From NCBI GenBank assembly GCA_017626055.1, contig JAGAJM010000004.1:186001-250000 (forward strand): a stretch of 64,000 nucleotides of DNA, given 5' to 3'. The translations under genes and the position numbers were made by a program. A model generated the notes under the pieces. It was not told the origin of the DNA. It saw only the letters and a list, made by a program, of their open reading frames with translations, and did no database searches. This document shows, one piece after another, positions 1,339-21,401 of the stretch (its first letter is position 1; each line of letters opens with the position of its first letter). The DNA comes from a bacterium (GTDB lineage Bacteria > Cyanobacteriota > Vampirovibrionia > Gastranaerophilales > Gastranaerophilaceae).

Positions 1339-3984
1339 ATGACAGAAAAACGAGTATGGCTTTTCAGAGAGGGCGACGCTTCTATGCGTAATCTTCTTGG
1401 TGGTAAAGGTGCAAACTTGGCAGAAATGACAAACTTAGGTTTACCAGTTCCTCCAGGTTTAACTATCACAACTGAAACTTGTATGGCTTACATCAATAAT
1501 GGTAATAAAATGCCAGAAGGTTTAATGGATGAAGTTAAAACTGCTTTAAAAGAAGTTGAAGCTCAAAAAGGTCAAAAATTTGGCGATCCAGTAAACCCAC
1601 TTTTAGTATCAGTTAGATCTGGTGCTAGAGTTTCAATGCCTGGCATGATGGAAACTATCCTTAACCTAGGTTTGAACGATCAAACAGTTGAAGCAATGAT
1701 TAAATTAACAAACAACCCAAGATTCTGCTATGACTCTTATAGAAGATTCTTAACTATGTTTGGTTCAGTTGCTTGGGAAATGGACAGACAAAAATACTTC
1801 GAATCTGAACTTGAAAAAGTTAAAGAAAGAGAAGGCGTAAAACAAGATACAGAAATTTCAGCAGAAGGTTTGAAATCTTTGATTCCTGTTTACAAAAACA
1901 TTATTAAAGAAGTTACTGGTAAAGAATTCCCACAAGATCCATATGTACAACTTCAAGAAGCTATTGAAGCAGTATTCAGATCTTGGAATATTCCACGTGC
2001 CGTTGCTTACAGAAACATGAACAAAATCGATCACAATTTCGGTACTGCGGTTAACGTTCAATCAATGGTATTTGGTAACATGGGTGACGATTGCGCAACA
2101 GGTGTTTCATTCACTCGTAACCCAGCTACTGGTGAAAACAAATTCTATGGTGAGTACTTAACAAATGCTCAAGGTGAAGACGTTGTTGCTGGTATCAGAA
2201 CTCCAAAACCTATCGCTGAATTGGAAACAGAAATGCCTGACTTGTACAGACAATATGTTGATATCGCTAAAAAACTTGAACTTGGTTATAAAGATGTTCA
2301 AGATATGGAATTTACAATTGAAAAAGGTAAACTATATATTCTTCAAACTCGTAATGGTAAAAGAACTGCAGCAGCTGCTGTAAGAATTGCCGTTGAAATG
2401 TGTGAAGAAGGTATCATCTCTAAAGAAAGAGCAATCCAATTAGTTGATCCTTATTCAGTTAACCAAATCTTACTTCCATGTTTTGATGCTAAAGCTATGG
2501 AAGAAGCTAAGAAAATTTCTTCAGGTGTAAACGCATCTCCAGGTGCAGCAGTTGGTAAAATCGTATTCGATACAGAAGAAGCTGCTCAAAGAGGTGAAGC
2601 TGGTGAAAAAGTTATCTTAGTTCGTATTGAAACTTGTCCAGATGATATTCATGGTATGGCAGTTGCTCAAGGTGTATTAACTCTACGTGGTGGTGCTACT
2701 TCTCACGCAGCAGTAGTTGCTAAAGGTATGGGTAAACCTTGTGTATCTGGTTGTGAAGATATTAAAATCGACCTAGACAAAGAAACATTAACAGCTGCTG
2801 ATGGTACTGTTTACAGAAAAGATGACATCATTTCATTAGATGGTGGAAAAGGTCTTGTAATGGCTGGTGCAGTTAAATTAGTTGAAGCTCAAATTGATGA
2901 CAACTGGAACAAATTCTTCTCTTGGGTTGACGAAATCAGACAAATCAAAGTAGAAGCTAACGCTGATACTCCAAAAGATATCATCAACGCATTGAAATTC
3001 GGTGCTGAAGGTGTTGGTCTTTGCCGTACAGAACACATGTTCATGGATCCAGAAAGACTTCCTTGGGTACAAAAAATGATTATTGCAGGTACTGCTGAAG
3101 CAAGAAAAGAAGCTTTGGCTAAACTTCTTCCAATGCAATATGCAGACTTCTATGCAATGTTCAAAGAATTAGGCGACAAACCTTTAACAGTTCGTCTATT
3201 AGACCCACCACTTCACGAATTCTTACCTAACAAAGAAGATTTAATCGCTGAAGTTGCAACATTGAAAGCTCTTGGTAAAGATGCTTCTGAAAAAGAAGAA
3301 ATGCTTCACATTGTTGAAGGTCTTTCAGAATCTAACCCAATGATGGGTCTAAGAGGTTGCCGTCTAGGTTTGACTTACCCAGAAATCAACGAAATGCAAG
3401 TAAGAGCAATCTTCGAAGCATGCTGCGATTTGAAAAAAGAAGGTTATGCAGTTAAACCTTGGGTAATGATTCCACTTATCGGTCACGTTAACGAATTAAA
3501 AGTTGCTAAATAAATTTTAGTAAGAGTAGCAAAAGACGTTATGACTGAAAAAGGTGTTGAAGTTGAGTACAAATTTGGTACAATGATTGAAATTCCACGT
3601 GCAGCATTAACTGCTGATGAGATTGCTGAATACGCAGAATTCTTCTCATTCGGTACAAACGACTTAACTCAAATGACATTCGGTTACTCAAGAGATGATG
3701 CTGAAGGTAAATTCTTGAACAGATATGTTGAACAAAAAATCTTAGCATCTAACCCATTTGAAACACTTGATACAAAAGGTGTTGGTCAATTGGTTGAAAT
3801 GTCAATGACAAAAGGTAAAGCTGTAAACGCATCATTAGTTGGTGGTGTTTGTGGTGAACACGGTGGCGATCCAGATTCAGTTAAATTCTGTCACAGAATT
3901 GGCTTGAACTATGTATCATGCTCACCATTCAGAATTCCTCAAGCAAAATTAGCTGCAGCTCAAGCAGTTGTTGAAGGAAAATAA
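1339..3984 (+). pseudogene. ppdK: Pyruvate, phosphate dikinase interrupted by an in-frame TAA
   Basis: PPDK interconverts pyruvate + ATP + Pi and PEP + AMP + PPi, a central step in anaerobic glycolysis. The N-terminal ATP-grasp part begins with VWLFREGDASMRNLLGGKGA, the phosphohistidine domain has GGATSHAAVVAKGMGKPCV, and the C-terminal PEP/pyruvate barrel has [11 protein letters not shown] and the [11 protein letters not shown] loop carrying the catalytic Cys. A TAA codon at 3511-3513 breaks the frame after residue 724. The same frame continues directly with family-like sequence ([14 protein letters not shown]) to the normal end at 3984. Homologues have K-E-I at this point, so one GAA-to-TAA change explains the break. 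The whole frame is about 881 codons, normal for the family. Start: AAGGAG lies upstream of ATG 1339. Reading only 1339-3513 would remove the active-site Cys. It may be a fresh mutation, a sequence error or readthrough. Confidence 0.93.
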
Positions 3985-4497: not shown

Positions 4498-4573
4498 GGG
4501 GGCTTAGCTCAGCTGGTAGAGCACCTGCTTTGCACGCAGGGGGTCAGGAGTTCGAATCTCCTAGCCTCCACCA
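4498..4573 (+). tRNA. tRNA-Ala (anticodon TGC)
   Basis: The 76-nt gene has a 7-bp acceptor stem (GGGGGCT with AGCCTCC) containing the G3-U70 wobble pair that is the alanine identity element. It has a normal D arm (GCTCAGCTGGTAGAGC) and an anticodon stem CCTGC/GCAGG with loop TTTGCAC giving anticodon TGC. The T arm is AGGAG-TTCGAAT-CTCCT and the 3' CCA is encoded. It is a likely integration site for the island that follows. Confidence 0.98.
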
Positions 4574-4603: not shown

Positions 4604-4937
4604 AAGCAAAAATCACGCACTGTGTGGGCTTTAGCCATTTAGTAAAATTCTCTAAATCTCATTTTCTTGAGAAGTTCTCTGTTATTTGGGGCGAATTCAC
4701 TTTCGCCAATTTCAAAGAGTCCTTTTGTAATTCATACACCATAAGTGTTTTTCATTTTGAACTTTAATTTGTATCTATTATATTTGAACAATAAGAATAG
4801 ACAAATTACACTCTTTTAAAATAGATATTTTTACAAGATTTAACTTCTTTTAATTACTAAATTAACTAGACACAAAAATTAGTAATTTATTTAAAATCAT
4901 TTTTTATCTTGTATAATAAAATTGTAGGAGGTTTCTG
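4604..4937. other. Intergenic region; possible gene remnant on the minus strand
   Basis: There is no intact gene here. On the minus strand 4755-4639 reads as 39 codons beginning MKNTYGV, then an in-frame TGA, then ITKGLFEIGESEFAPNNREL and on to a TAA. The part after the TGA looks protein-like, so this may be a decayed small gene. The right end holds a TATAAT at 4912-4917 that may serve as the -10 box of the large gene starting at 4938. Confidence 0.35.
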
Positions 4938-7900
4938 TTGAATATGGATGCAGGTGCGATTTCAACAATTTTAAATCATTTCCCGAATATAGATTTAGTT
5001 TCAATTTTAGCAAGCATAACTATTGATAAAGGGCTTTGCTGGGGCGTTAAAAATATTTGTGAACGTATTACAAAATCGGAGTATAATAAATATAAAGACA
5101 CTCTCAATGCCCCTTTTTTCATGGCTTTTAAAAACACTTTAAATATCTTTTCAGATGAGCAATCTTCGCTATATCCATTACCTGCAGAATTTACAGAACA
5201 CCTAAGTCTTTTAAATGATATTGAAATTTCGACGATATTTTCTAGTCCACAGAATATTGATATTCCTTATGATGAAAATAATATTTACGCATTAATGACT
5301 GAAAAATTCCGAACTTATAACAAGATACAAGGTGTTGAGTTACCAGAAGATTTTTATATGTTTTGGCAAACTACTTTTAAGGGAGAATATGAATCTGCAT
5401 TTGCTTTGTTCCTAGCAGAAGATAATTCTATTTTAGCTCAAACAATTATAAAAATATTTTCAATTTCAATGGGCGAAATTAACAATATTAAAAGTCAATT
5501 ATCTGCAATAAAAATAGATACAACTAATCTATTATATAAGCAAGAAATTTTAAATCAAAAAATGGATTTATTACCGCAATATGTAGTAGATAAAGTTAAG
5601 GATGAGCTGCCTGGCCTTTTAAATTCTGCACTACAATCTCAAGAAAATCCAAATGAAGATAAAGAATTAAAAAAAATACAAAAATTATTTGATGATTGCG
5701 ACTATGAAAATTGTATTTCATACATAAAACTTAATAAGGATGATAATTGGATACATAAGAATAATGCATTTCATGCTAATTGTTTTAATAAACTTGGGGC
5801 TTGTTATTTAGAATTAAATAAGCCGGAGTTAGCCAAAGAGTATTTTCTTACATCAATAGATACTGATCCTACATATGATAACCCTAAATTTAATCTTGCA
5901 CAACTTTCATTGAGTGATGAAGATTATGATAAATTTGAATATTATCTAAGTACTTTTAACGATAAAAATTCCGAATTGTATCACAAACTAGCTTTACAAA
6001 AACTTGTAGACATCAATCAGGACTTCGCATATGCTAGAACATATTTAGAAGAAAACTTTAAAAACTATAAAGATTATTTATTTTATAAAGCTTATATAGA
6101 TTTAAAAGACCCACAAATAATAGATACGATAAATGCTGAAACTTGTTTGGAGGGCTATATAAAACAAAGTCAGGAAAATACCGTAATAGCCAGATTTAAT
6201 TTACTCAACTCAAAATTTCATAGACTATCAAATAATATTGATTGGCAATTTGCTTTTGATTTAAATGTTTCAGGGGAATTAAAAGTAGTTTCTAGTCCTG
6301 TAGTAGTTCCAAATAAGGAATTTGCCTGCCTTTTAGTAGAATTAAAAAGCCTATATTCAGATATGCTTAAAACAAAAAAGCAACAAATAAAACTATTAAC
6401 AAACATCCAAGTTAAAATTCATCTAACTGAGTATATATTAGGTCAATTTAATATTAAGGATCAAGAAATTGAAAATATAAATATTGTAGCCACAGAAAAT
6501 AAACTTGAAGAAGTTTTATTACTGGAGATTTTAGCTCTAAACATTTTATGTTCAAAATATTTTGAGGCTCATAACATTTATAAATTATTATCAGATGAAA
6601 CAAAAACTAATAGTCGAAATAATTATATTTTAATATTATTCGGTGAAAAAAGATATGAAGAACTTGTTGATTTTGTTACCGATAAAGATTTTCAATATGA
6701 AATAAATGAGCAATTAAAATTAGTTTCTTTAACAAAAATAAAAGAATTTGTAGAACTAAGTTCTTACATAAGATACAAATTACCAATGTATAGTGATAGT
6801 TTAAAGCTTTTTTGTGCTTGGTTATATCACGACGCCCTTCATTATGATAATGAATTAAAAATATTAAAAGAACTTACTAATAAAATCAAAGAAAATCCAG
6901 AAGACTATGAACCTAATTTTGTTTATAAAACTGCTTATGCATTATCTTTTTTCAAGACATATGATGATATTGCGAAACTGAGAGAGCAACTTCTTGAAGC
7001 TTATTGGATAAAATTTCCTATAAAGGAAAATTTTCAAATGGGAATAATTTATGCAACAGACCTTTTTAATAAAAGGAAAATATCCCAATGCTTAAGTGTT
7101 TTAGGCATTTTAAGAGAATTTGAACCAGAAAATACTGATTTAAAAAATTTATATTCTCATATTGATTTATTAAATCACAATCCACAAACGCTTATTGAAA
7201 ATTATGAAAAAGGATTACTTGATGAATCCCAGCACCCCTTAGTTGCACAATCTTATATCCAAATAAAAGAATATGAAAAAGCTGAACAATTAATAAACTC
7301 TTTTAAATATATTAATACTCTCAAATTGCAATATTATTATTTAAAATTCAATTTAGATAAAGCTAGAAATGCTGATGATGAAATAATAATAGAACATTTA
7401 AAAGAAGCCTTAGAAGAATATCCAAAAGATTTACAACTTGCACAAATAATTTTTGGTTTTTTAATGCATAGTCCAGTCGTAAATGAAGAAACAATGATTC
7501 TATTTTCAAAAAGCAAAACAATAATGCAAACTAATAATCTCATATATGAATTTCAATTAGATATGGATAATCCTATTCAGAGCTTAACTGATGCTATAGA
7601 AAAGTTTGAACCCCATCAATTGTATCAAAAAAGGGAAGAAACGTACGCTGAATGTTTAGATTATTATAATCAATTTAAGTTCCCATTAACATTAATAGCT
7701 GAAATTTTTAAAACAACTCCTGGTGAATTATTTGCTAATTTTGCAGAAGATGAAACACAACAAATATGTTTTTCCAAACGTTCAAATGAACAATACGAAA
7801 AAGACTTAGAATTAATAACAAAAAATAAGTCTATAATAGTAAATATCCAAACTTTGATTTTGATAAAAATCCTCGAAATTGATGAGTTAATTTTTAGTAA

Positions 7901-8873
7901 TTTTAAAATTAAAATCACAAATAATTCAAAATTTGAAATAGAAACAATATTTAATGATATAACAAAGACCACTACAGAAAAATTGGTTCGTAATAAAGCC
8001 GGAGTACCACATTTAATATTTGTTGAAAATAATATAATAAAATATAAAAATTATTTAAAAGGTTGTGCAGATAAATTAGAATGCGTGTCATTTAAATCTG
8101 AGAAAGCAAAAGCTATCCCTTTAATAACAGCTGAAGAAAATTTGGGATCCAAAAAGTTATTATTCGACAGTATTGTTGCGATCCAAAATGAATGTTTACT
8201 ATGTTCTTCGGATGCTGTTATGGGTATTTTGAATAAAGAATTTAACGGTAATGATATTTCATTATTAAGTATGTTGCGTTATTTGGTTAAACATAACATT
8301 ATAACCTCAAAGAAAGAATCTTTATTAAAATTTAAATTAATAAATTTAGGTTGTAAATATATACCATTAACTGCAGAAAATCTGACACATATTTTGACTG
8401 ATAAAATTGATAATTTTAAGAAAATTAAAGCATACTTAAGTAAAGAATTTGAGCCTAGTTCTGTTGCAAATGTATTAGCAGTATTAATATTAAATATTGA
8501 TAATAAAAAATCTTTTAATGAAAATAAATTTTTACTTATTAACGAAATATTTGAGTGGTTTAATTCTTTTAATGTACAAGAACCAACAAAACTTTTAATG
8601 TCCTCTTTTATTGAAATATATCCTAAGTTAAGCACGCTAACTCAGAAATGTATTGCACAGAATTTCAATATATATGTATTGGACGAAATATATATTGAAA
8701 AATATTATAAAACTGTTGCTAGAGAAATTGTTCGTATCAAATATAATAATCCATCAAAATGTAAAGAGGAACTTTTAAGACTATTTTTTAATGTATCACC
8801 CGAGATCCAAAATAAGATTAAATTATTTATTGATAAATTCATTAATTTAGGTTTCTTTGATTTTTTTGAATAA
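4938..8873 (+). CDS. Giant TPR-like solenoid protein with C-terminal PIN-like domain
   Basis: This is a 1311-residue cytoplasmic protein of unknown function. Residues about 250-900 are a long run of helical pairs with TPR character (for example CFNKLGACYLELNKPELAKEY near 285). Residues about 960-1155 resemble a PIN nuclease fold. The first strand is SIIVNIQTLILIKIL, where families have Asp and this protein has Asn. A Glu follows (KFEIETIF), then LLCSSDAVMGIL with the expected late Asp, and a closing segment (LINLGCKYIPLTAENL) typical of PIN domains attached to TPR proteins. The PIN assignment is my inference. AGGAGG lies 6 bp before TTG 4938, so a TTG start is chosen; ATG 4944 is the alternative. 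It is the first gene of the island, upstream of the RM operon. A defence role is plausible but not shown. Confidence 0.8.
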   Translation: MNMDAGAISTILNHFPNIDLVSILASITIDKGLCWGVKNICERITKSEYNKYKDTLNAPFFMAFKNTLNIFSDEQSSLYPLPAEFTEHLSLLNDIEISTIFSSPQNIDIPYDENNIYALMTEKFRTYNKIQGVELPEDFYMFWQTTFKGEYESAFALFLAEDNSILAQTIIKIFSISMGEINNIKSQLSAIKIDTTNLLYKQEILNQKMDLLPQYVVDKVKDELPGLLNSALQSQENPNEDKELKKIQKLFDDCDYENCISYIKLNKDDNWIHKNNAFHANCFNKLGACYLELNKPELAKEYFLTSIDTDPTYDNPKFNLAQLSLSDEDYDKFEYYLSTFNDKNSELYHKLALQKLVDINQDFAYARTYLEENFKNYKDYLFYKAYIDLKDPQIIDTINAETCLEGYIKQSQENTVIARFNLLNSKFHRLSNNIDWQFAFDLNVSGELKVVSSPVVVPNKEFACLLVELKSLYSDMLKTKKQQIKLLTNIQVKIHLTEYILGQFNIKDQEIENINIVATENKLEEVLLLEILALNILCSKYFEAHNIYKLLSDETKTNSRNNYILILFGEKRYEELVDFVTDKDFQYEINEQLKLVSLTKIKEFVELSSYIRYKLPMYSDSLKLFCAWLYHDALHYDNELKILKELTNKIKENPEDYEPNFVYKTAYALSFFKTYDDIAKLREQLLEAYWIKFPIKENFQMGIIYATDLFNKRKISQCLSVLGILREFEPENTDLKNLYSHIDLLNHNPQTLIENYEKGLLDESQHPLVAQSYIQIKEYEKAEQLINSFKYINTLKLQYYYLKFNLDKARNADDEIIIEHLKEALEEYPKDLQLAQIIFGFLMHSPVVNEETMILFSKSKTIMQTNNLIYEFQLDMDNPIQSLTDAIEKFEPHQLYQKREETYAECLDYYNQFKFPLTLIAEIFKTTPGELFANFAEDETQQICFSKRSNEQYEKDLELITKNKSIIVNIQTLILIKILEIDELIFSNFKIKITNNSKFEIETIFNDITKTTTEKLVRNKAGVPHLIFVENNIIKYKNYLKGCADKLECVSFKSEKAKAIPLITAEENLGSKKLLFDSIVAIQNECLLCSSDAVMGILNKEFNGNDISLLSMLRYLVKHNIITSKKESLLKFKLINLGCKYIPLTAENLTHILTDKIDNFKKIKAYLSKEFEPSSVANVLAVLILNIDNKKSFNENKFLLINEIFEWFNSFNVQEPTKLLMSSFIEIYPKLSTLTQKCIAQNFNIYVLDEIYIEKYYKTVAREIVRIKYNNPSKCKEELLRLFFNVSPEIQNKIKLFIDKFINLGFFDFFE

Positions 8874-8896
8874 TTTATTATTTAGCATCTTATTCT

Positions 8897-9403
8897 TTAC
8901 TCTACATACTCATTCGCAATCACAATAAGCTTTTTCACGTTTAGTTCTGGGTCTTGGGTGCCGTTCATTATGGCCTCAATCATTTCTGGTGGCAGGAATC
9001 TTAATTTACGCAAACGTTTGTTATTGCCACTACTTGAAGTTGTTGTATTAAAATGTTGGGTTATCGAAACAAATGATGCATTGTGCTGATCAAAGATTTC
9101 AATTATCTTTGAAAAATCCATTAGGGAACGTGTTAATCGGTCAACTTTATAAACTACAACAATGTCTATTTTATTGTTTTTTATGTCTTCAAGAAGCTCT
9201 TTAAATGCAGGTCTTTCCATCGTTCCACCTGAATATCCACCGTCATTATATTGTTTTTTTACCAAAACCCAACCTTCGTGTGCTTGTGATTTTATATAAG
9301 ATTCGCAGGCTTCTCGTTGAGCATCAAGAGAGTTAAAATTCAGTTCTAAACCTTCTTCTGTTGATTTTCTAGTATAAATGGCACATCTAATTTGTTTTTT
9401 CAT
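8897..9403 (-). pseudogene. Internally deleted large serine recombinase
   Basis: The first ~130 residues are a serine-recombinase catalytic domain. The nucleophile motif is [11 protein letters not shown], followed by [35 protein letters not shown] and [11 protein letters not shown]. Large recombinases of this kind run to 450-550 residues. Here NTTTSS passes straight into a C-terminal tail ([15 protein letters not shown]) normally found hundreds of residues later. The DNA-binding recombinase domain and zinc ribbon are missing, so the 168-residue product is probably inactive. The ATG at 9403 is used rather than the upstream one at 9436, because it overlaps the DUF2924 stop by one base (TAATG). 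Confidence 0.85.
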
Positions 9404-9717
9404 TACGCTACTCCAAAAAATTTTCTTCCATTCCAACGAGTGCCGGTTATTTCATTTGCTATTGCAGAGAGGCTTTTGTATTTTTTGCCGTTATATTCAT
9501 ATCTGTCAGAAATAATGGTAACTGTGTATTGTTTACCTTTGAATTCCCGAATCAATCTAGCACCTTCAGCAATAGAAAACACTTTGCTATTTTTATCCAA
9601 TTCCTGCTTTTGATCATATTGTTCGACGAGCTTATCTATTTTTCGTTGAACCTCTGGTGACAGACCACCATATTGTCGTTCCCATTCAGCTATGCGTTTT
9701 TCGAATATATTAGGCAT
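9403..9717 (-). CDS. DUF2924 family protein, recombinase partner
   Basis: This 104-residue protein matches the DUF2924 pattern: [17 protein letters not shown], then [20 protein letters not shown] and WNGRKFFGV. The family is typically encoded directly before a large serine recombinase in phages and integrative elements, as here, with a one-base overlap. A strong AGGAGG precedes ATG 9717. It probably acts with the recombinase, but its molecular role is not established. It appears intact although its partner is not. Confidence 0.85.
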
Positions 9718-9884
9718 ATGACCTCCTTACTAACATCTATCACTCTAGTCAGCAGAAACATCAAGCCCAAATACACAATTCGTATCAATAATTTATTTGC
9801 AAATAAATCGTTACAAATTCAATAAGTGTCTAATTTTCGTGATAAAATTTAAGAAAATAAGTGTTTTTATATAGCGAGGTAAGT

Positions 9885-11396
9885 ATGGCAGGAAAAAATA
9901 ACGCAAATATAGGATTTGAAGAGCAATTATGGAAAGCTGCTTGTGTCCTTTGGGGACATATTCCAGCTGCAGAATATAGAAAAGTAATTGTTGGTTTGAT
10001 TTTCTTGCGTTATATCTCAAGCGTTTTTGATAAAAAATACCAAGAACTTCTTGCTGAAGGTGATGGTTTTGAAAACGATAAAGACGAATATTTATCAGAA
10101 AATATTTTCTTTGTGCCAGAAGAGGCAAGATGGTCAAAAATTTCAGAAGCCGCACATACTCCAGAAATAGGCAAAATTATTGATGAAGCTATGCTTGCTA
10201 TTGAAAGAGAAAACAAATCTCTTAAAGGCGTTCTTCCTAAAAACTATGGTTCACCAGATTTAGATAAAAGAGTTTTGGGCGAAGTTGTTGATTTGTTTAC
10301 TAACAATATCAAAATGGATGATACAGAAGAGAGTAAGGATTTATTGGGTAGAACTTATGAGTACTGTATTGCTCAGTTTGCAGCTTATGAAGGCACAAAA
10401 GGTGGTGAATTTTATACACCATCAAGTATTGTAAAAACCCTTGTTGAAATATTAAAACCTTTTGAAAACTGCCGTGTTTATGACCCTTGCTGTGGATCAG
10501 GCGGTATGTTTGTTCAATCGGTTGAGTTTTTAAAGGCTCATAGTGGAAATAGAGATCGGATCTCTGTTTATGGTCAAGAATCAAACTCTGACACTTGGAA
10601 AATGGCTAAAATGAATATGGCTATTCGTGGAATTGACGCTGATTTTGGTCAATCACAAGCAGATACATTCTTTAATGATGTTCATCCAACATTGAAAGCT
10701 GATTTTATTATGGCAAACCCTCCATTTAATCTTTCAAACTGGGGACAAGATAAATTGCAAGAAGATGTGCGTTGGAAATATGGTATTCCTCCTGCAGGAA
10801 ATGCCAACTTTGCTTGGATTCAGCATATGATACACCATCTTGCACCAAATGGGAAAATTGGTTTGGTCCTTGCTAATGGTGCACTATCGTCTCAAACAAG
10901 TGGCGAAGGTGAAATAAGAAAAAATATTATTGAAGATGATTTGGTTGAAGGTATTGTTGCACTTCCTACTCAATTGTTTTATAGCGTAACAATCCCTGTA
11001 ACTCTTTGGTTTATATCTAAAAATAAAAAGCAAAAAGGTAAGACATTATTTATTGATGCTCGCAAAATGGGCTATATGGTAGATAGAAAACACAGAGATT
11101 TTACTAAAGAAGATATCCAAAAACTTGCTGATACATTTACTGCATTCCAAGAAGGAACGCTAGAAGATGTAAAAGGTTTCTGTGCTGTTATAACAACTTC
11201 TGATATTGCAAAACAAGATTATATCTTAACTCCTGGTCGTTATGTTGGTATTGAAGAACAAGAGGACGATGGCGAACCTTTTGAAGATAAAATGAAACGA
11301 TTAACTTCTGAATTGTCTGAAATGTTCGCAAAATCAAATAATTTGCAAGAAGAAATCAAGAAAAATCTTTCAGCAATAGGTTTTGAGGTGAAGTAG
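9885..11396 (+). CDS. hsdM: Type I restriction-modification DNA methyltransferase subunit HsdM
   Basis: HsdM transfers a methyl group from S-adenosylmethionine to adenine in the target set by HsdS, forming the M2S complex. The N-terminal HsdM helical domain is present (FEEQLWKAACVLWGHIPAAE, FLRYIS). The SAM motif is DPCCGSGGMF near residues 201-210 and the catalytic NPPF is near 278, with the linker GGEFYTPSSIVKTLVEI between the domains. It has about 503 residues, usual for the family. ATG 9885 is preferred over ATG 9861 because GAGGT precedes it and the family's N-terminus aligns there. It begins a co-directional run that ends at 18930 with almost no gaps. Confidence 0.95.
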   Translation: MAGKNNANIGFEEQLWKAACVLWGHIPAAEYRKVIVGLIFLRYISSVFDKKYQELLAEGDGFENDKDEYLSENIFFVPEEARWSKISEAAHTPEIGKIIDEAMLAIERENKSLKGVLPKNYGSPDLDKRVLGEVVDLFTNNIKMDDTEESKDLLGRTYEYCIAQFAAYEGTKGGEFYTPSSIVKTLVEILKPFENCRVYDPCCGSGGMFVQSVEFLKAHSGNRDRISVYGQESNSDTWKMAKMNMAIRGIDADFGQSQADTFFNDVHPTLKADFIMANPPFNLSNWGQDKLQEDVRWKYGIPPAGNANFAWIQHMIHHLAPNGKIGLVLANGALSSQTSGEGEIRKNIIEDDLVEGIVALPTQLFYSVTIPVTLWFISKNKKQKGKTLFIDARKMGYMVDRKHRDFTKEDIQKLADTFTAFQEGTLEDVKGFCAVITTSDIAKQDYILTPGRYVGIEEQEDDGEPFEDKMKRLTSELSEMFAKSNNLQEEIKKNLSAIGFEVK

Positions 11397-11900
11397 ATGC
11401 CAAGAATTTGTGTTAGTGATGAAAGATTAAAAAAAATCTTGATTTCTTCTTTAAATAAATTTTATCAACAAGATAAATTATTGATAGAAAGAACAGGCAT
11501 GGAACAGGCATGTGTTTTTCGGATAGGATTATATATTAATGAACTATTAAAGCAAGATGAACAATTGAGCCATTTAGATTTTGACTGTGAGTATAATAAA
11601 AATAATTATGGTACAAAATCTACTCCAAGATTTCCAAAAGGTACAAGACCTGATTTAATTATCCATGAAAGAAATCTTGAGCCTAATGCAATCAATGATA
11701 ATAACACTTTTATTATTGAATTTAAAGGTTGGTGGAATAAAGCAACTACTAGGGATCTTGAAAAATTGGAGGATTTTACAAGTCCTTATAAAGGATACCA
11801 TTATCAATTAGGAGTTTTAGTTGTATTAACTAAGTGCTTCGAAGATTTAGAATTATACTATTTTAAAAATGGACAGGAGGTGGCAGAAAATGACCTCTAA
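11397..11900 (+). CDS. Unknown protein with PD-(D/E)XK-like motif between hsdM and hsdS
   Basis: This 167-residue soluble protein has RPDLIIHE (about residue 82) followed by FIIEFKG (about residue 105). That gives the D...ExK spacing of PD-(D/E)XK nucleases, followed by a region that ends in a hydrophobic strand (YQLGVLVVLTKC). The fold assignment is an inference from these motifs only. Its ATG follows the hsdM stop with no gap and its end overlaps hsdS by 11 bp, so it should be translated with the modification genes. Confidence 0.75.
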   Translation: MPRICVSDERLKKILISSLNKFYQQDKLLIERTGMEQACVFRIGLYINELLKQDEQLSHLDFDCEYNKNNYGTKSTPRFPKGTRPDLIIHERNLEPNAINDNNTFIIEFKGWWNKATTRDLEKLEDFTSPYKGYHYQLGVLVVLTKCFEDLELYYFKNGQEVAENDL

Positions 11901-13089
11901 TTGGAAAGAATGTAAACTTAGTGATGTTTGTGAATTAGTTGCAGGTTTTGCCTTCAAAAGTAAAGATTTTGGAGGTTATAATAACAAAGTTATCAAAATT
12001 GCTAATATTACACCCCCCTACGTTCAAATGGACAATTTATCTGGTGTTGATATTTCTCAATATGATAAATCTAAATTAAATAAATTCAAAGTAACTGTTG
12101 GAGATTATGTATTAGCAATGACTGGAGCAACAATAGGTAAATTGGGAAGAATATTATGTGATGAAGCATATATAAATCAGCGAGTATTATCCTTTTCTCC
12201 CAAAAATAGCATTGATAAAAAATTTTTGTATTATGTACTGTCTCAGAACAAATTTAATAAATATATATTAAATTACACTGATAGTGATACTGCTCAACCT
12301 AATATAAGTGCTAACACTATTGGTAAATATAAATTTTATTTACCTGAATTAAAAACACAGCGGAAGATTGCGAAGGTGTTGAGTGCGATTGATGACAAAA
12401 TCGAATTAAACAATTCGATAAATAATAATTTAGAACAACAAGCAATGGCTTTGTTTAAACAAAAAATTATTGAAAATTGCGATAATAAAAATGGTACTAT
12501 TGGCGATTATTGTTCTGTAAAATCAGGGTATGCGTTTAAAGGAACATGGTGGCAAGATTGCGGTGTAAAAGTTGTAAAAATTAAAACCATTGATAATGAT
12601 ACTATCAATTTTAATGATTGTTCTTATGTATCAGAAGATAAAGTCCAATATGCTAAAGATTTTATTGTGCAAGGTGGAGATTTACTTATAGCAATGACAG
12701 GTGCCACTATTGGTAAATTTGCAGTAATACCTAAAATTAATGAACCATTATTGGTTAACCAACGTGTCGGGAAATTCTTTTTAGGAACTGAACCATTAAA
12801 TCGTTTAGCGTTTTTATATTGTTCACTAAAACAACAAGATACAATTACAGAAATTATTAATAGAGGACAAGGAAGTGCTCAACCAAATATCAGTAGTACA
12901 GATATCATGACAACTCCATGTTATTTACCAAATAAATATGTTATTGACGAGTTTAATGAACTTTGTAAACCTATATTTGAAACTATAATTACCAATAAAT
13001 ATGAAAATGAACAATTAGCAAACTTACGAGATGCTTTATTACCGAAGTTAATGTCTGGCGAAATTGATGTTGATAACGTGGAGGTGTAA
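11890..13089 (+). CDS. hsdS: Type I restriction-modification specificity subunit HsdS
   Basis: HsdS has two target recognition domains in tandem, each reading half of a bipartite site. Both halves carry the same signature: VLAMTGATIGKLG with INQRV in the first half and LIAMTGATIGKFA with VNQRVG in the second. Each is followed by AQPNIS and a helical spacer (RKIAKVLSAIDDKIELNN; LANLRDALLPKLMSGEI). The start is set at ATG 11890, with AGGAGG at 11875-11880, rather than at the earlier ATG 11869. The gene overlaps its upstream neighbour. The product has 399 residues, typical length. Confidence 0.95.
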   Translation: MTSNWKECKLSDVCELVAGFAFKSKDFGGYNNKVIKIANITPPYVQMDNLSGVDISQYDKSKLNKFKVTVGDYVLAMTGATIGKLGRILCDEAYINQRVLSFSPKNSIDKKFLYYVLSQNKFNKYILNYTDSDTAQPNISANTIGKYKFYLPELKTQRKIAKVLSAIDDKIELNNSINNNLEQQAMALFKQKIIENCDNKNGTIGDYCSVKSGYAFKGTWWQDCGVKVVKIKTIDNDTINFNDCSYVSEDKVQYAKDFIVQGGDLLIAMTGATIGKFAVIPKINEPLLVNQRVGKFFLGTEPLNRLAFLYCSLKQQDTITEIINRGQGSAQPNISSTDIMTTPCYLPNKYVIDEFNELCKPIFETIITNKYENEQLANLRDALLPKLMSGEIDVDNVEV

Positions 13090-13092
13090 AAG

Positions 13093-13566
13093 ATGAATCC
13101 AGATTCATTGGTTAAAATTCTAACTTTTTTTAACAAACCTTTCCACTATTTTATAGCAGGGATTATTATTCTTGTTTTTGCGGAAAAGGATTGGGCAATT
13201 TGGGGCTGGTTATTGATAGGATTATCAATCGCAAGTTTTGTAGAATGGCTTGTTAATATTGGAGTGAGAAAATACAACGAAGAACAAGAAAAGAATAGAG
13301 AACAAGAAAAAGAGAATATTAAAAAAGAAAAAATATATCGAGCATATGATGAACTTAATTACAGTGAAAAATTAGTTATTTCTTGGTGTGTTAATAATAA
13401 AAATATTATTTATAGAGATGATTGGGGTGAACATTATGAAGAAATGTTGGCTCTTAGTGTAAAAGGTTTTGGTCAATTAAAAACCAATGATACATTTATA
13501 TTGGATCCTGAATGTTTAGAATGGCTAAAAAAATGTTCAATTATTAATAATGATGATGAATTGTAA
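13093..13566 (+). CDS. SieB-like superinfection exclusion family membrane protein
   Basis: The 157-residue protein has two membrane segments close to its N-terminus (about 15-31, FHYFIAGIIILVFA; about 36-54, IWGWLLIGLSIASFVEW). A charged helix follows (EEQEKNREQEKENIKKEK), then a soluble C-terminal domain containing YSEKLVISWCV. This layout resembles the superinfection exclusion protein B family, some of which block phage development from the inner membrane. The match is by architecture and is not certain. It starts 3 bp after hsdS with GGAGGT upstream, inside the RM operon. Confidence 0.6.
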   Translation: MNPDSLVKILTFFNKPFHYFIAGIIILVFAEKDWAIWGWLLIGLSIASFVEWLVNIGVRKYNEEQEKNREQEKENIKKEKIYRAYDELNYSEKLVISWCVNNKNIIYRDDWGEHYEEMLALSVKGFGQLKTNDTFILDPECLEWLKKCSIINNDDEL

Positions 13567-13578
13567 ATAAGGATTATT

Positions 13579-14436
13579 ATGACAAGACAAAATATATTTG
13601 AAATATTAGATTCTGCCTACGATATAACTAGGGAATTTGGCAAAATTCAAGATTTGTATAGTAATGTAGTTATTAATTGTACTAATCCGTTGAATTATAG
13701 GCAATCTAGTTATAGTATAGAAAATTATGTAGATACTTTCTTATTACATATCTGGAAGCAACGAAAAAGTTTTTTATCTGTTGAAGAGATGAAGAATTGT
13801 ATTTTTGCAACAATTACTTTTGAAGATATAGATAAAATAGAAACAAAATTAAAAATTCTCGAATATTTCATAAATATTATATATCTTATTGAAAGTAAAG
13901 GATGTACAAATGACCCTATTAATCAGTTTGGTAAAAACTTTTTGTTTTTGAAAGAGAACATTAATATATTACTAGAAAATTTAAACTACGAACAACTTGT
14001 CATAAAAGATGAAGAAAGAGTATTATTAGTACTCAAAGATCCTGCAGCAACAGCAGTTGCAGAAATATCTTCAGAAGATACAGCTTTGGCAATTTTAAAA
14101 TACAATCACGCATCTATGAAAGGTGATTTAGAAGGTAAAAGGAATCTTTTATTTTCAATCTACCGTGAATATGAACCATTATTGAAGCAACCTATTGAGG
14201 GTTATGCAGATTTTTATAATAAAGTTAGAGGTTTATATAACACTCTTGATATTAGGCATAATAATAAAACCAAAGAAGGTAATAAAAACAATGTCATTGA
14301 TATTAGTGACGAAGAACTTGAAAAATGGTATGATGAGTTGTATCAATTACTTCTTTTCTGCGTATTAATAAAAGACAATCTAGAAAGAAAAAAAGAAGTC
14401 GATGAATTTTTGAAAGAAATTAAGAAGGTAGACTAA
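13579..14436 (+). CDS. Unknown helical protein within the RM operon
   Basis: This 285-residue protein is soluble and mainly helical. Its C-terminal half (from about residue 150, with AILKYNHASMKGDLEGKRNL and DIRHNNKTKEGN) has the feel of HEPN/abortive-infection type helical bundles, but I see no clean Rx4-6H motif, so no function is assigned. AAGGA precedes ATG 13579. Its stop overlaps the next start by one base, pointing to coupled translation with the HEPN-like protein. The pair may work together. Confidence 0.7.
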   Translation: MTRQNIFEILDSAYDITREFGKIQDLYSNVVINCTNPLNYRQSSYSIENYVDTFLLHIWKQRKSFLSVEEMKNCIFATITFEDIDKIETKLKILEYFINIIYLIESKGCTNDPINQFGKNFLFLKENINILLENLNYEQLVIKDEERVLLVLKDPAATAVAEISSEDTALAILKYNHASMKGDLEGKRNLLFSIYREYEPLLKQPIEGYADFYNKVRGLYNTLDIRHNNKTKEGNKNNVIDISDEELEKWYDELYQLLLFCVLIKDNLERKKEVDEFLKEIKKVD

Positions 14437-15104
14437 TGATAGACGAAAGATTTGAAACCATTTCTTATTATATGAAAACAAAAAGATATGCCATTTCTAA
14501 AATGACTAAATTTGTCAAACCGCTTGATGATATGCAGTTAGAAGAAATGCAAATAATTTATAGCATATATTTTAATTCTTTTATCTCATTAATTGATTAT
14601 ATTTGTGAAATTTTAGATAATACTATTTATGATCATTGTAATAATATATTAGGAAGTGAAACAAATTTCAAATATGTTAGGGAATTGAGGAATAGTATAA
14701 TACATCGTGGATTAGATGTTTCTATGGCTGGTTGCGAACTTGAAGGATTTAATATTATTGTACCTTTTGCACCAAAAGTTGTTTATAATCGAAAAGGTGA
14801 AATTGAATACCAGAATTTTACAGATAATTTATTTCAACTGGTTGTTCTTTGTGAGCAAGTAAATCCTTATATTCATAAATTATGTTCAGATATGAACTTA
14901 TTAAGATACGATATTATAACAAAAGAAGAAATTCTGGAAAGATCACTAAATGATCCATATATTCCTGAATTCGCAAAAGAATTGTTAAAACAAGCAAAAA
15001 TAGACTATAATGAACTAAATAGAATGGGTAAACAAATTCATGAGGATAAAATAAAAAAATATTTTGATACACAAGATTTATTCCCAAAAATAAACGAGGT
15101 ATAA
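14436..15104 (+). CDS. HEPN-like protein (putative RNase) within the RM operon
   Basis: The 222-residue helical protein contains YVRELRNSIIHRG, with R85 and H90 forming the Rx4H motif of HEPN RNases. HEPN proteins often serve as toxic effectors in defence systems. Here the assignment rests on this motif and the helical context. The gene overlaps the preceding one by a single base and lies 1 bp before hsdR. Regulation by the RM complex or by its upstream partner is possible but is inference. Confidence 0.7.
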   Translation: MIDERFETISYYMKTKRYAISKMTKFVKPLDDMQLEEMQIIYSIYFNSFISLIDYICEILDNTIYDHCNNILGSETNFKYVRELRNSIIHRGLDVSMAGCELEGFNIIVPFAPKVVYNRKGEIEYQNFTDNLFQLVVLCEQVNPYIHKLCSDMNLLRYDIITKEEILERSLNDPYIPEFAKELLKQAKIDYNELNRMGKQIHEDKIKKYFDTQDLFPKINEV

Positions 15105-15105
15105 C

Positions 15106-18100
15106 ATGCAAACAACATACACAGAACAATCTTATGAAAATTCAGTAATAGAATTATTCCAGAATATGGGATATACCCATGTTTATGGTCCTGATATTGA
15201 AACTCGTGATTTTCATTGTCCTTTGTATGAAGATATTCTGCTTGATTATATCCATAGATTAAACAAAACTGCACCAGAAGGGGCAATTCAAGAGGCTATA
15301 TTTAAACTTAAAAATATAGATAATAATGACTTATTGCAACAAAATATGGTTTTTATGGATTATTTGCAAAATGGTATTCAAGCTCGTTATATGGAAAATG
15401 GCGAGCAACGTTCAACTATCATTTATCTTGCAGATTATAAAAATCCTGATAATAACTCGTTTATTATTGCCAACCAATGGACTTTTATTGAAAATTCAGA
15501 AAAACGACCAGATGTTTTATTATTCTTAAACGGCATTCCTGTTGTTTTATTTGAACTAAAATCTCCATCAAGAGAGGAAACTGACGCATCTGCTGCATAT
15601 AGACAAATCAAAAACTATATGAAAGAAATTCCATCTATGTTCACCTATAACGCAATTTGCGTTATGTCGGATTTATTAGAATCAAGAGCTGGAACAATAA
15701 CTTCTGGTGAAGATAGATATATGGAATGGAAAACCAAAGATGGCAATTATGAAAACAATCAATATGCGCAGTTTGATACTTTTATTGAGGGGATTTTTAC
15801 TAAAGAACGCTTACTTGATATCTTGAAAAACTTTATCTGTTTTAATAAAGACGGAGCTGATAGTTTTAAAATTTTAGCAGGATATCATCAATATTTTGCA
15901 GTAAGAAAAGCTATTGAATCAACTAAACACGCAACTCAAACTGATGGCAGAGGTGGTGTTTTTTGGCATACACAAGGCAGTGGTAAATCTTTATCTATGG
16001 TATTTTATGCTCACCTTTTGCAAGAAGCATTAAACAGCCCAACAATTGTTGTTTTAACCGACAGAAATGATTTAGATAATCAGCTTTATGGTCAATTCTC
16101 AAGATGCCAAGATTTTTTAAGACAAGTTCCAGTTCAAGCTGAAAGCAGAGAAAACTTAAAAGAACTTTTGAACGGTAGAGAAGCCAATGGAATTATTTTT
16201 ACTACAATGCAAAAATTTGAAGAGTCAGATGAACCATTATCAGAACGTCTTAATATTATTGTTATGGCTGATGAAGCACATAGAGGTCAATATGGCTTTA
16301 GTGAAAAAGTTGATGATAAAACTGGTAAAATAAAAACGGGTGCTGCAAGAATTATTAGAAACTGCTTGCCAAACGCAACATATATTGGTTTTACAGGTAC
16401 TCCAATTTCTGTGAAAGATAGAAATACAAGAGAAGTTTTTGGTGATTATATTGATATCTACGATATGACACAAGCTGTAGAAGATGGTGCAACTCGTCCT
16501 GTTTATTACGAAAGCAGAGTTGTAAAACTTCAACTAGACCCAGCAACATTAGCTCTAATTGATAAAGAATATGAAATTATGGCTCTTAATGCTGATGCTG
16601 AAGTTGTAGAAAAAAGTAAAAGACAATTAGCTAATTTTGAAGAAGTTTTAGGTAATGAAAATACGATAAATTCGCTTGTTGATGATATTTTAAAGCACTA
16701 CGAAGAAAACAGAGAAAATTTACTAACAGGTAAAGCAATGATAGTTGCTTATTCTCGACCAATTGCGATGAAAATTTATCGTAGAATTCTAGAACTTCGA
16801 CCAGTCTGGGCTGAGAAAAACAAAGAAAAAATTGCAGTTGTTATGACATCTGATAACAACGACCCTGAAGATTGGCGAGATGTTGTTGGTAATAAAACAT
16901 ATAAAAACGAACTTGCAAAAAGATTTAAAGATAACAATGACCCACTAAAAATCGCAATCGTTGTAGATATGTGGCTTACTGGTTTTGATGTACCATCACT
17001 TGCGACAATGTATGTTTACAAGCCGATGTCTGGTTATAATTTAATGCAAGCAATTGCAAGAGTTAATAGAGTATTTAGAGATAAAGAGGGCGGCTTAATT
17101 GTTGATTATGTTGGAATTGCAACTGCATTAAAGCAAGCAATGAATGACTATACCGTAAGAGACAGAAAGAATTATGGCAATATGGATATTTCTCAAATGT
17201 CTTATCCAAAATTCAAAGAAAAATTAGAGGTTTGCCGTGATTTATTAAACGGGTTTGATTATTCTAAATTTGTTACAGGTTCAGATTTAGACAGAGCGAA
17301 AACAATTAGTGGTGCTGTTAACTTCTTGATTGCACCAGAAATGCAAGATCAAAAAGATTTATTCCAAAAAGAAGCTTTATTATTACATCAAGCGTTATCT
17401 TTATGTTCATCAATTGCACAAGATAATGAAAGAATAGAAGCGGCTTTATTTGAATCTGTCAGAGTTTTAATCGGTAGATTAGCAAATACTGGCGTTGGTA
17501 AAAAGATTTCATTACCTGAGATGAATGCGAGAATTAACGAGCTTTTAAAACAAAGTATCAGAAGCGAAGGAGTTATAAATTTATTCTCTGATGTTAAAGA
17601 AGAGTTTTCATTGTTTGATCAAAAATTCTTAGAAGAAATTTCAAAAATGAAAGAGAAAAATCTTGCAGTTGAAATATTGAAAAAACTATTAGCAGAGCAG
17701 ATTTCTGTTTATAGAAGAACAAATGTTGTTAAGAGTGAAAAATTTAGTGAAATGATGCAAGCTGCAATTAATAAATATATTAATGGTTTAATTACTAACG
17801 CAGAAGTAATTGAAGAGCTTCTTAAAATGGCAAAGGAAATAGCAGAAACAACAACAATTCAAGGCTTAACAGATGAAGAAGTTGCTTTTTATGATGCGTT
17901 AACTAAACCACAAGCAGTTAAAGATTTTTATGAAAATGATCAACTAATAGCCATGACAAAAGAATTAACCGATACGCTTCGTCGAAATAAAACCATTGAC
18001 TGGCAGAAAAAAGAATCAGCTAGAGCTTTAATGAGAAAAAGTATAAAAAGATTATTGAAAAAATATAATTATCCACCAGAAAAACAAGAAGATGCATTGC

Positions 18101-18153
18101 AAACAGTAATGACTCAATGTGAGCTTTGGACAGATAATTTGATGGAAATCTAA
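15106..18153 (+). CDS. hsdR: Type I restriction enzyme subunit HsdR
   Basis: HsdR is the translocase-endonuclease of type I RM; it pulls DNA in an ATP-dependent way and cuts unmodified DNA. The N-terminal nuclease region has RPDVLLFLNGIPVVLFELKS (about residues 136-155), the PD-ExK core. The helicase part has Walker A TQGSGKS near 291, DEAH near 389, TGTP, and the late motifs WLTGFDVP and QAIARVNR. A helical C-terminal domain would bind the modification core. The 1015-residue length is normal and the frame is intact. GAGGT lies before ATG 15106. Confidence 0.96.
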   Translation: MQTTYTEQSYENSVIELFQNMGYTHVYGPDIETRDFHCPLYEDILLDYIHRLNKTAPEGAIQEAIFKLKNIDNNDLLQQNMVFMDYLQNGIQARYMENGEQRSTIIYLADYKNPDNNSFIIANQWTFIENSEKRPDVLLFLNGIPVVLFELKSPSREETDASAAYRQIKNYMKEIPSMFTYNAICVMSDLLESRAGTITSGEDRYMEWKTKDGNYENNQYAQFDTFIEGIFTKERLLDILKNFICFNKDGADSFKILAGYHQYFAVRKAIESTKHATQTDGRGGVFWHTQGSGKSLSMVFYAHLLQEALNSPTIVVLTDRNDLDNQLYGQFSRCQDFLRQVPVQAESRENLKELLNGREANGIIFTTMQKFEESDEPLSERLNIIVMADEAHRGQYGFSEKVDDKTGKIKTGAARIIRNCLPNATYIGFTGTPISVKDRNTREVFGDYIDIYDMTQAVEDGATRPVYYESRVVKLQLDPATLALIDKEYEIMALNADAEVVEKSKRQLANFEEVLGNENTINSLVDDILKHYEENRENLLTGKAMIVAYSRPIAMKIYRRILELRPVWAEKNKEKIAVVMTSDNNDPEDWRDVVGNKTYKNELAKRFKDNNDPLKIAIVVDMWLTGFDVPSLATMYVYKPMSGYNLMQAIARVNRVFRDKEGGLIVDYVGIATALKQAMNDYTVRDRKNYGNMDISQMSYPKFKEKLEVCRDLLNGFDYSKFVTGSDLDRAKTISGAVNFLIAPEMQDQKDLFQKEALLLHQALSLCSSIAQDNERIEAALFESVRVLIGRLANTGVGKKISLPEMNARINELLKQSIRSEGVINLFSDVKEEFSLFDQKFLEEISKMKEKNLAVEILKKLLAEQISVYRRTNVVKSEKFSEMMQAAINKYINGLITNAEVIEELLKMAKEIAETTTIQGLTDEEVAFYDALTKPQAVKDFYENDQLIAMTKELTDTLRRNKTIDWQKKESARALMRKSIKRLLKKYNYPPEKQEDALQTVMTQCELWTDNLMEI

Positions 18154-18930
18154 ATGAAACAAGCAAAAAGTAGTATATGCAAATTTTGTGGTAAAGAAAA
18201 GAAGTTAATAAAAGCTCATATTATACCTAAAAAATTTTATTTAGGATTAAAAGATGACAGATACCTATGTATAAATTCCCAAAATTGTAAATATGTAATT
18301 CAACAACAGGGCGGATATGATTCAAATATCTTATGTGGAGATTGCGATAATCATATTTTAGGAGAATTCGATAAAGAAGGTTATCGGATATTATTAGGCG
18401 ATTTTAGTAAATATAAATATGAGTATTTGCATCCTCAAAAAATATATCAGCTAGATAATAGTTGCTACGATTATCACAAATTAAGAAAATTTTTTATTTC
18501 TATTTTATGGCGTGCATCTATTTCTACATTAGAAGAATGGTCAAATATAAATTTGGGTGGATATGAGAAAAAAGCTCTTGAAATATTAAAGGATGTAAAA
18601 GAACACGAGAAATTATTTAAAATCTTAATTTATAAAAATTGCTACACAGAAGATATTAACCAAGAAGTTTTTATTGCAAAAGGAAAAACTTCAAAATATA
18701 AAAAATATGTTATTCAAATGGCTGGATATCGTATTGAAGTTATGGTGGATTCTAGTAGAATTACAAACCAATATAAAAAACGTTATGAAAAATATTTTTT
18801 AAATCAAGAGTATCTGCATATTATAGAAACACCCGAGGTCTCTTGGCGAATTAACAAAGAATATAATTCAAGAATGTCTAAAATGTATGAACAAGGTTTT
18901 GTACCGCCAAAACCACCAGGTGTAGAATAA
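18154..18930 (+). CDS. HNH-like zinc-ribbon protein, last gene of the RM operon
   Basis: The 258-residue protein begins with CKFCGKEKKLIKAHIIPKKF and has a second cysteine pair in LCGDCDNHILGEFD. This CxxC...H...CxxC arrangement is like HNH-type nucleases, the His of KAHIIP being the likely first His. The remaining 190 residues are unassigned. The ATG follows the hsdR stop with no gap, so it belongs to the operon. It may be a DNA-cutting or accessory factor; a non-catalytic zinc-binding role is also possible. Confidence 0.65.
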   Translation: MKQAKSSICKFCGKEKKLIKAHIIPKKFYLGLKDDRYLCINSQNCKYVIQQQGGYDSNILCGDCDNHILGEFDKEGYRILLGDFSKYKYEYLHPQKIYQLDNSCYDYHKLRKFFISILWRASISTLEEWSNINLGGYEKKALEILKDVKEHEKLFKILIYKNCYTEDINQEVFIAKGKTSKYKKYVIQMAGYRIEVMVDSSRITNQYKKRYEKYFLNQEYLHIIETPEVSWRINKEYNSRMSKMYEQGFVPPKPPGVE

Positions 18931-20297: not shown

Positions 20298-21401
20298 CTA
20301 CTTCAACAAATAATGAGTGTTTCGACCTGCACCAGTTTTTTTGAGTATTTTTTTATCAATTAAATCTAGGATATCTCTGTTTGCAGTATCGTGAGAACAA
20401 TTACAAATTTTTGCCCATTTTTGAGTGGTTAATTTGCCTTCAAAGTTTTCAAGTAGTTTTTTCAATACTTTGATTTGGCGTTCGTTAAATACGACAGTTT
20501 TATTTGTATTCCAAAACTCTGTTCTGCGAATAACATCTCGCAATAATTCTTCTGAATGTTCAATTGCCGCAGACATATTTTCTAAGAACCAAACAATCCA
20601 AGATGTGATATCAACAGATTCTTTTTGAGTAATTTGTAGAATTTCGTAGTATGATTTTCTGTTTTTCTGAATCTGAGATGACATTGAATAAAATCTGTTT
20701 GGTGAATTTTCACTTTTTGCTAACAACATATCTGTTATAGCTCTTGCAATACGTCCATTTCCATCTTCAAATGGGTGAATTATTACAAACCATAAGTGAG
20801 CGATTGCAGTTTTTATAACTAAATCTGTTTCTTTTTCGTCATTTATATAATTTAGAAAAGCGTTCATTTCTTTATTTAAACTATTTGCAGGTGGTGCTTC
20901 ATAATGTACTTTTTCATGTCCAACAGCTCCAGAAACAACTTGCATTGCTCCATTAGCATCATCTCTGTATTCACCGACTTTAATTTTGTACAAACCACTT
21001 CTGCCACTAGGAAACATTGCAGCTTGCCAGCCAAACAAACGATCTTCGTCTAAAGGTTTGTCAAAATTTTGTGTTGCATCAAGCATCATATCAACAGTAC
21101 CTTGAACATCTCGTTCGATATAAATATCATCACCGATATTTAACCCTAATCTTTTAGCAATAGAAGAACGTACTTGTTCTGTATTTAATTTCAAACCTTC
21201 AATCTCGCTTGATTTTATGACATCTTCGGTCAAAACGTTCAAAACAGCAAATTGGCTATTTTCAAAGCCCAATTGATTCATTTTGCCTAATAATATACCT
21301 TGTTTTAATCTTACATTAGATAATAAAGGCATTATTAACTCTTTATCGTATGTAAAATTAGGATATTCTGAATTTTGCCAGATGTATTTTTTCATAATCA
21401 A
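20298..21401 (-). CDS. Fic family protein (protein AMPylase type, class II)
   Basis: Fic proteins transfer AMP from ATP to hydroxyl groups of target proteins. The active loop IHPFEDGNGRIAR near residue 207 is the full HxFx(D/E)GNGRxxR motif. An N-terminal inhibitory helix motif SSEIEG (residues ~63-68; S/TxxxE/G) marks a class II, self-inhibited enzyme. The C-terminal ~70 residues form a winged-helix-like domain (LTTQKWAKICNCSHDTANRDILDLIDK) that may bind DNA. The length of 367 residues is usual. ATG 21395 is a possible alternative start. Repeated TATCTACGCA sites upstream suggest a dedicated control region. Confidence 0.92.
   Translation of the reverse strand: MIMKKYIWQNSEYPNFTYDKELIMPLLSNVRLKQGILLGKMNQLGFENSQFAVLNVLTEDVIKSSEIEGLKLNTEQVRSSIAKRLGLNIGDDIYIERDVQGTVDMMLDATQNFDKPLDEDRLFGWQAAMFPSGRSGLYKIKVGEYRDDANGAMQVVSGAVGHEKVHYEAPPANSLNKEMNAFLNYINDEKETDLVIKTAIAHLWFVIIHPFEDGNGRIARAITDMLLAKSENSPNRFYSMSSQIQKNRKSYYEILQITQKESVDITSWIVWFLENMSAAIEHSEELLRDVIRRTEFWNTNKTVVFNERQIKVLKKLLENFEGKLTTQKWAKICNCSHDTANRDILDLIDKKILKKTGAGRNTHYLLK

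Follow-up and report, generated by a model that had tools for sequence, protein, structure and literature searches.

The described proteins closest in plan to the one reported here are the TPR-GreA/B-C-PIN conflict proteins, which join TPR, GreA/B-C and PIN domains to a variable N-terminal effector and are mostly encoded by standalone genes (eLife 2021;10:e70394, PMC8195603). Their authors predicted that these proteins act on virus-hijacked RNA polymerase, with cleavage of the transcript (PMC8195603). The PIN domain of the family is represented in Pfam by PF20698 (PIN-TPR-GreABC), which we found in all six canonical proteins scanned. The N-termini of canonical members include a PNPase-like domain (L048, from a different genome in the phylum) and, in some plasmid-borne members, restriction-nuclease-like domains. 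A literature search under the family's short name returned no papers. As a side observation, the canonical PIN of L050 (995–1056) matches PDC-S70, a candidate family in PADLOC (E = 7e-5), which hints at an overlap of the TPR-GreA/B-C-PIN family with an unnamed phage-defence candidate.

We analysed a 64,000-nucleotide stretch of DNA (the window) from the 1.87-Mb genome of a gut bacterium related to the Cyanobacteriota. The open reading frame at 4938–8873 on the forward strand is one intact gene with a TTG start, encoding 1311 amino acids, and a ribosome-binding site (AGGAGG, 4926–4931) can be read directly from the sequence 6 nt 5′ of the start. Homologues in other species share 40–44% identity with the protein and align over approximately its full length. 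The gene is apparently transcribed alone. A tRNA-Ala gene (TGC; 4498–4573, forward strand) marks the left edge of a variable region: to the left, the sequence matches the closest relative at 95.8% identity up to position 4710, just beyond this tRNA, after which the closest relative has different genes. A tRNA-derived attachment repeat was sought at the locus and none was found. Further to the left, a pyruvate phosphate dikinase gene is split by an in-frame stop at 3511–3513 into two pieces in the same frame (1339–3513 and 3541–3984); the frame is open across this point in the closest relative, and the stop could be genuine or an assembly error.

The 1311-residue protein opens with a helical domain (residues 1–160; 4938–5417), modelled by AlphaFold within residues 1–480 at moderate confidence from about residue 46 onward, which is a candidate effector or adaptor domain and was seen only in this five-member family (the window family, below). 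The domain has no Pfam match (E ≤ 10) and no PADLOC match, its model is weak, and the model of residues 1–480 matched only TPR structures, with nothing matching the N-terminal domain. In one homologue (L056, 4900–5110), the first residues, about 1–45, lie in another frame, as in a frameshifted copy or an assembly error. Long helices, probably a coiled coil, follow at residues 161–240 (5418–5657); they are of low confidence (pLDDT <50) and continue in the model to approximately residue 240. The middle of the protein is a TPR-like solenoid (residues 241–860; 5658–7517), identified by weak single TPR matches in the Pfam scan, by TPR chains as the best matches of the family profile, and by TPR superhelices as the best matches of the AlphaFold model (Z ∼12, residues 231–480), with a predicted short β-hairpin near residues 439–451. 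Across Pfam, NCBIfam and PADLOC scans of the whole protein, only the TPRs were convincingly covered. The mid-protein TPR solenoid that defines the TPR-GreA/B-C-PIN system is thus present, and the preliminary description, made from the DNA alone, was right to propose a helical-repeat protein of about 1.3 thousand residues.

The tail begins with a linker (residues 861–955, FQLDMDNPIQSL ... FPLTLIAEIF; 7518–7802), continues into a degenerate PIN-like domain (residues 956–1145; 7803–8372) and ends in an α-helical region (residues 1146–1311; 8373–8870) modelled with a pLDDT of ∼71–90 in most blocks. No Pfam model matches the PIN-like tail, even at E ≤ 10; PF20698 has no match at E ≤ 10 in the four family members scanned, and PADLOC gave nothing on the tail. 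The homology was found by profile–profile comparison, in which residues 860–1311 aligned with the canonical TPR-GreA/B-C-PIN tail at an hhalign probability of 97% (E = 8.5e-11, score 84.7, 359 columns), against a best score of 18.9 in 30 column shuffles; the PIN segment alone gave 67% (p = 5e-5). Homology starts at the stretch directly behind GreA/B-C in the relatives, where FYTITM.GDIQ is aligned with LIYEFQLDMDNPIQ, and the linker, PIN and following helices are co-linear and homologous to the tail of that family. This firm match rests on a set of 16 canonical sequences. An earlier six-sequence set gave 92% for the tail, with reversed and TPR controls at 0.1–0.2%, but the match dropped to 12–14% on omitting one of two sequences from the cyanobacterial phylum, and PIN-only and single-sequence profile comparisons against this small set were weak; because of this fragility to leaving one sequence out, the set was enlarged to 16. 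The canonical relatives comprise L037, L048 and plasmid-borne proteins, with Burkholderia and Agrobacterium tumefaciens plasmid matches left out.

Structure prediction of the tail, which the preliminary description had suggested, was run and gave no confident fold for the PIN core: in an AlphaFold model of residues 780–1311 from five sequences, this core was of low confidence (pLDDT ∼26–48 over residues 950–1120), and Foldseek and VIA-align on this model returned helical-repeat matches only and no PIN structure. As the PIN core was not confidently modelled, the fold assignment rests on sequence homology. The tail is PIN-like by remote homology, as had been proposed. Because it aligns with the TPR-GreA/B-C-PIN tail, the architecture has a named relative, and the earlier remark that no named system was known with exactly this architecture does not hold; the nearest plan was described in 2021 (PMC8195603) and its PIN is modelled by PF20698.

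The alignment places the window family, very probably, as an offshoot of the TPR-GreA/B-C-PIN family. Both are large single proteins with a variable N-terminal domain, a TPR solenoid and a C-terminal PIN with helices, and both are encoded by standalone genes of patchy distribution. The window family differs in having no detectable GreA/B-C, first catalytic Asp or LR/YR arginine, in escaping PF20698, in an N-terminal domain with no match to a known effector, and in being so far limited to one bacterial family. The GreA/B-C segment has no counterpart in the window family by profile–profile comparison (0.1–0.2%, compared with 95% for the positive control). GreA_GreB (PF01272) likewise has no match there at E ≤ 10, whereas L049–L051, three of the six canonical proteins scanned, have one (best E = 2.8e-6). 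We infer that the domain was lost by the window family, taking the polarity from parsimony and not from a rooted tree. The missing GreA/B-C lay beyond the view of the preliminary description and changes the likely mechanism. A canonical member from the same bacterial family and a related gut lineage (L037, 1106 aa, genome G229) shares the TPRs, the same linker motif and a PIN matching PF20698, but still has the first Asp as well as a stretch that aligns with GreA/B-C, and its N-terminus is short and different. Since GreA/B-C, PF20698 and the first Asp were all looked for in the 1311-residue protein and not found, we do not file it as a TPR-GreA/B-C-PIN member.

Examination of the PIN-like domain revealed that the catalytic acid set is incomplete, with the first Asp gone and the others largely kept. 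The position of the first Asp is occupied by Asn969 (7842–7844), with Asn, Ser, Ser, Ala and Ser in the five known members of the family and Asp in 16/16 canonical sequences, so the earlier remark that the first expected Asp is Asn was correct. Glu1000, the motif-2 acid (7935–7937), is Glu in four of the five members and Gln in the other, while the third acid, Asp1077 (8166–8168), and the last, Asp1092 in a CSSD motif (8211–8213), are kept in all five. The arginine that follows the last Asp in canonical proteins (LR/YR) is lost. The PIN core has dN/dS values of 0.08–0.29 between family members, indicating purifying selection, so the PIN is maintained and not simply decaying. A PIN without the first Asp is probably not an efficient metal-dependent RNase, judging from its residues, and the three remaining acids may support some catalysis. 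One could go further and propose an active nuclease, in which Glu1000, Asp1077 and Asp1092 hold one metal ion, Asn969 or Ser replaces the first Asp, and RNA is cut when the solenoid is triggered. The two invariant acids, Glu1000 in four members and the purifying selection on the core would agree with this, but a first position that is invariant in the canonical set and here accepts three different residues including Ala, a Gln in place of Glu1000 in one member, and the loss of the arginine make it unlikely.

VapC-type PIN toxins also belong to the PIN superfamily, but the window protein is much larger and lacks the first Asp, and no antitoxin gene was seen adjoining its gene. In nonsense-mediated decay, the helical-repeat protein SMG5 carries a degenerate PIN and is functional though it does not cut alone. 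This eukaryotic PIN, whose likeness to the window protein is one of analogy only, is reported to complete a composite PIN active site with SMG6 (PMC12923823). By the same analogy, the domain described here might be a pseudo-PIN that completes a composite site with another cellular PIN protein. Acids conserved in a domain without its first Asp would suit such a role, and composite PIN formation has a reported precedent (PMC12923823), but the window genome yielded no canonical PF20698 protein and no partner gene accompanies the homologue in L035, L036 or L055, so that this arrangement appears very improbable.

Full-protein relatives (40–44% identity) were found in four further species, all from this bacterial family, giving five members in total, and within the genus the gene is present in 2 of ∼45 genomes. 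Within the phylum, three partly overlapping sets of 98, 386 and 334 genomes were searched and yielded no relatives outside this gut family. A species-wide scan covering 84,980 species of Bacteria and Archaea found no members outside the one bacterial family, by short peptide patterns that can miss distant relatives, and no relative was found among viral contigs, phages and plasmids. The window family is rare and patchily distributed.

The preliminary description had placed the gene upstream of a type I restriction–modification (RM) operon. This stands insofar as the operon starts ∼1 kb downstream, with hsdM at 9861, but two opposite-strand genes intervene and the link is not conserved. The first of these is a degraded serine recombinase (8897–9436, reverse strand) that is convergent with the 1311-residue gene and in which an N-terminal resolvase domain is fused to what appears to be the extreme C-terminus, as though the part in between had been deleted; the second is a DUF2924 gene (9403–9717), upstream of the remnant on the same strand. 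The operon itself (9861–18930) has additional internal genes, including one with weak resemblance to PD-Lambda-3_A (11397–11900) and three open reading frames without known identity (13093–15104), and ends, after hsdR, in a gene whose CxxC-rich start is like that of an HNH protein (18154–18930). A survey of homologue neighbourhoods, proposed earlier as a check for defence genes, found no RM genes beside the homologues with readable flanks (L035, L036 and L055), and we rejected the reading of the 1311-residue gene as an accessory of the type I RM system, as hsdMSR linkage is not conserved at these loci. The window locus and the other homologue loci also share no convincing flank similarity; with the RM link not conserved either, the gene seems to move separately from the RM operon. 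The few conserved neighbours and the standalone gene are features shared with TPR-GreA/B-C-PIN genes. Similar Fic-type genes lie near both the window locus (20298–21401) and the L035 homologue (8055–9206), which may be coincidence.

The homologue in L035 and L036 has a divergent AAA ATPase gene on one side and, on the other, a serine-recombinase element together with a DUF6551 gene. In L055 its neighbours are housekeeping genes and an incomplete AAA gene, with no recombinase seen in the 13 kb covered. The AAA ATPase gene that diverges from the homologue recurs across the L035/L036/L055 group (L036 13428–14840, L035 9207–10178); that of L036 matches PADLOC IetA (E = 2e-35), and no IetS protease was noticed nearby. 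These neighbourhoods could reflect an accessory protein without a part in defence, such as one that regulates a mobile element or serves as its scaffold: two homologues adjoin a serine recombinase along with a DUF6551 gene and small genes that are conserved, the window copy adjoins the recombinase remnant, and PADLOC gives no match. We consider this improbable in view of L055, where 13 kb around the gene are covered and no recombinase is seen, and of the related proteins with restriction-nuclease-like or PNPase-like N-termini, which fit conflict effectors. Among the loci examined, no conserved genomic tie of the window family to other defence genes was found. The earlier suggestion that a sensor-like solenoid with a PIN-like tail follows the plan of a large conflict-system protein is supported by the domain comparisons; a defence role for the 1311-residue protein is putative.

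Having lost the domain for docking on RNA polymerase as well as a key catalytic residue, the protein probably senses or signals and does not cut. We propose that, without GreA/B-C, it would no longer dock on RNA polymerase, and that, without the first Asp, its PIN would no longer be an efficient metal-dependent RNase. The solenoid and degenerate PIN would then form a sensor that binds invader-derived RNA or protein without cutting, and binding would free the helical N-terminal domain or drive its oligomerisation via the coiled coil, so that this domain performs or recruits a toxic output. Taken as a whole, the offshoot placement and this mechanism, a conflict-type sensor that stands alone and couples a degenerate PIN to an N-terminal output, have in our judgement about an even chance of being right. 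A more specific version, offered tentatively and with some doubt, is that the degenerate PIN on its TPR solenoid is a non-cutting receptor for invader RNA or a product of stalled transcription, triggering a new class of helical effector without RNA-polymerase docking.

The comparison extends the reach of the TPR-GreA/B-C-PIN family beyond what PF20698 detects. If the proposal is true, RNA-polymerase docking and transcript cutting, which were described together, would become separable, and one lineage would have lost both and yet retained, under selection, the scaffold of solenoid and PIN. Whether the PIN cuts or senses would then be addressable by comparison with the canonical protein L037 from the same bacterial family.
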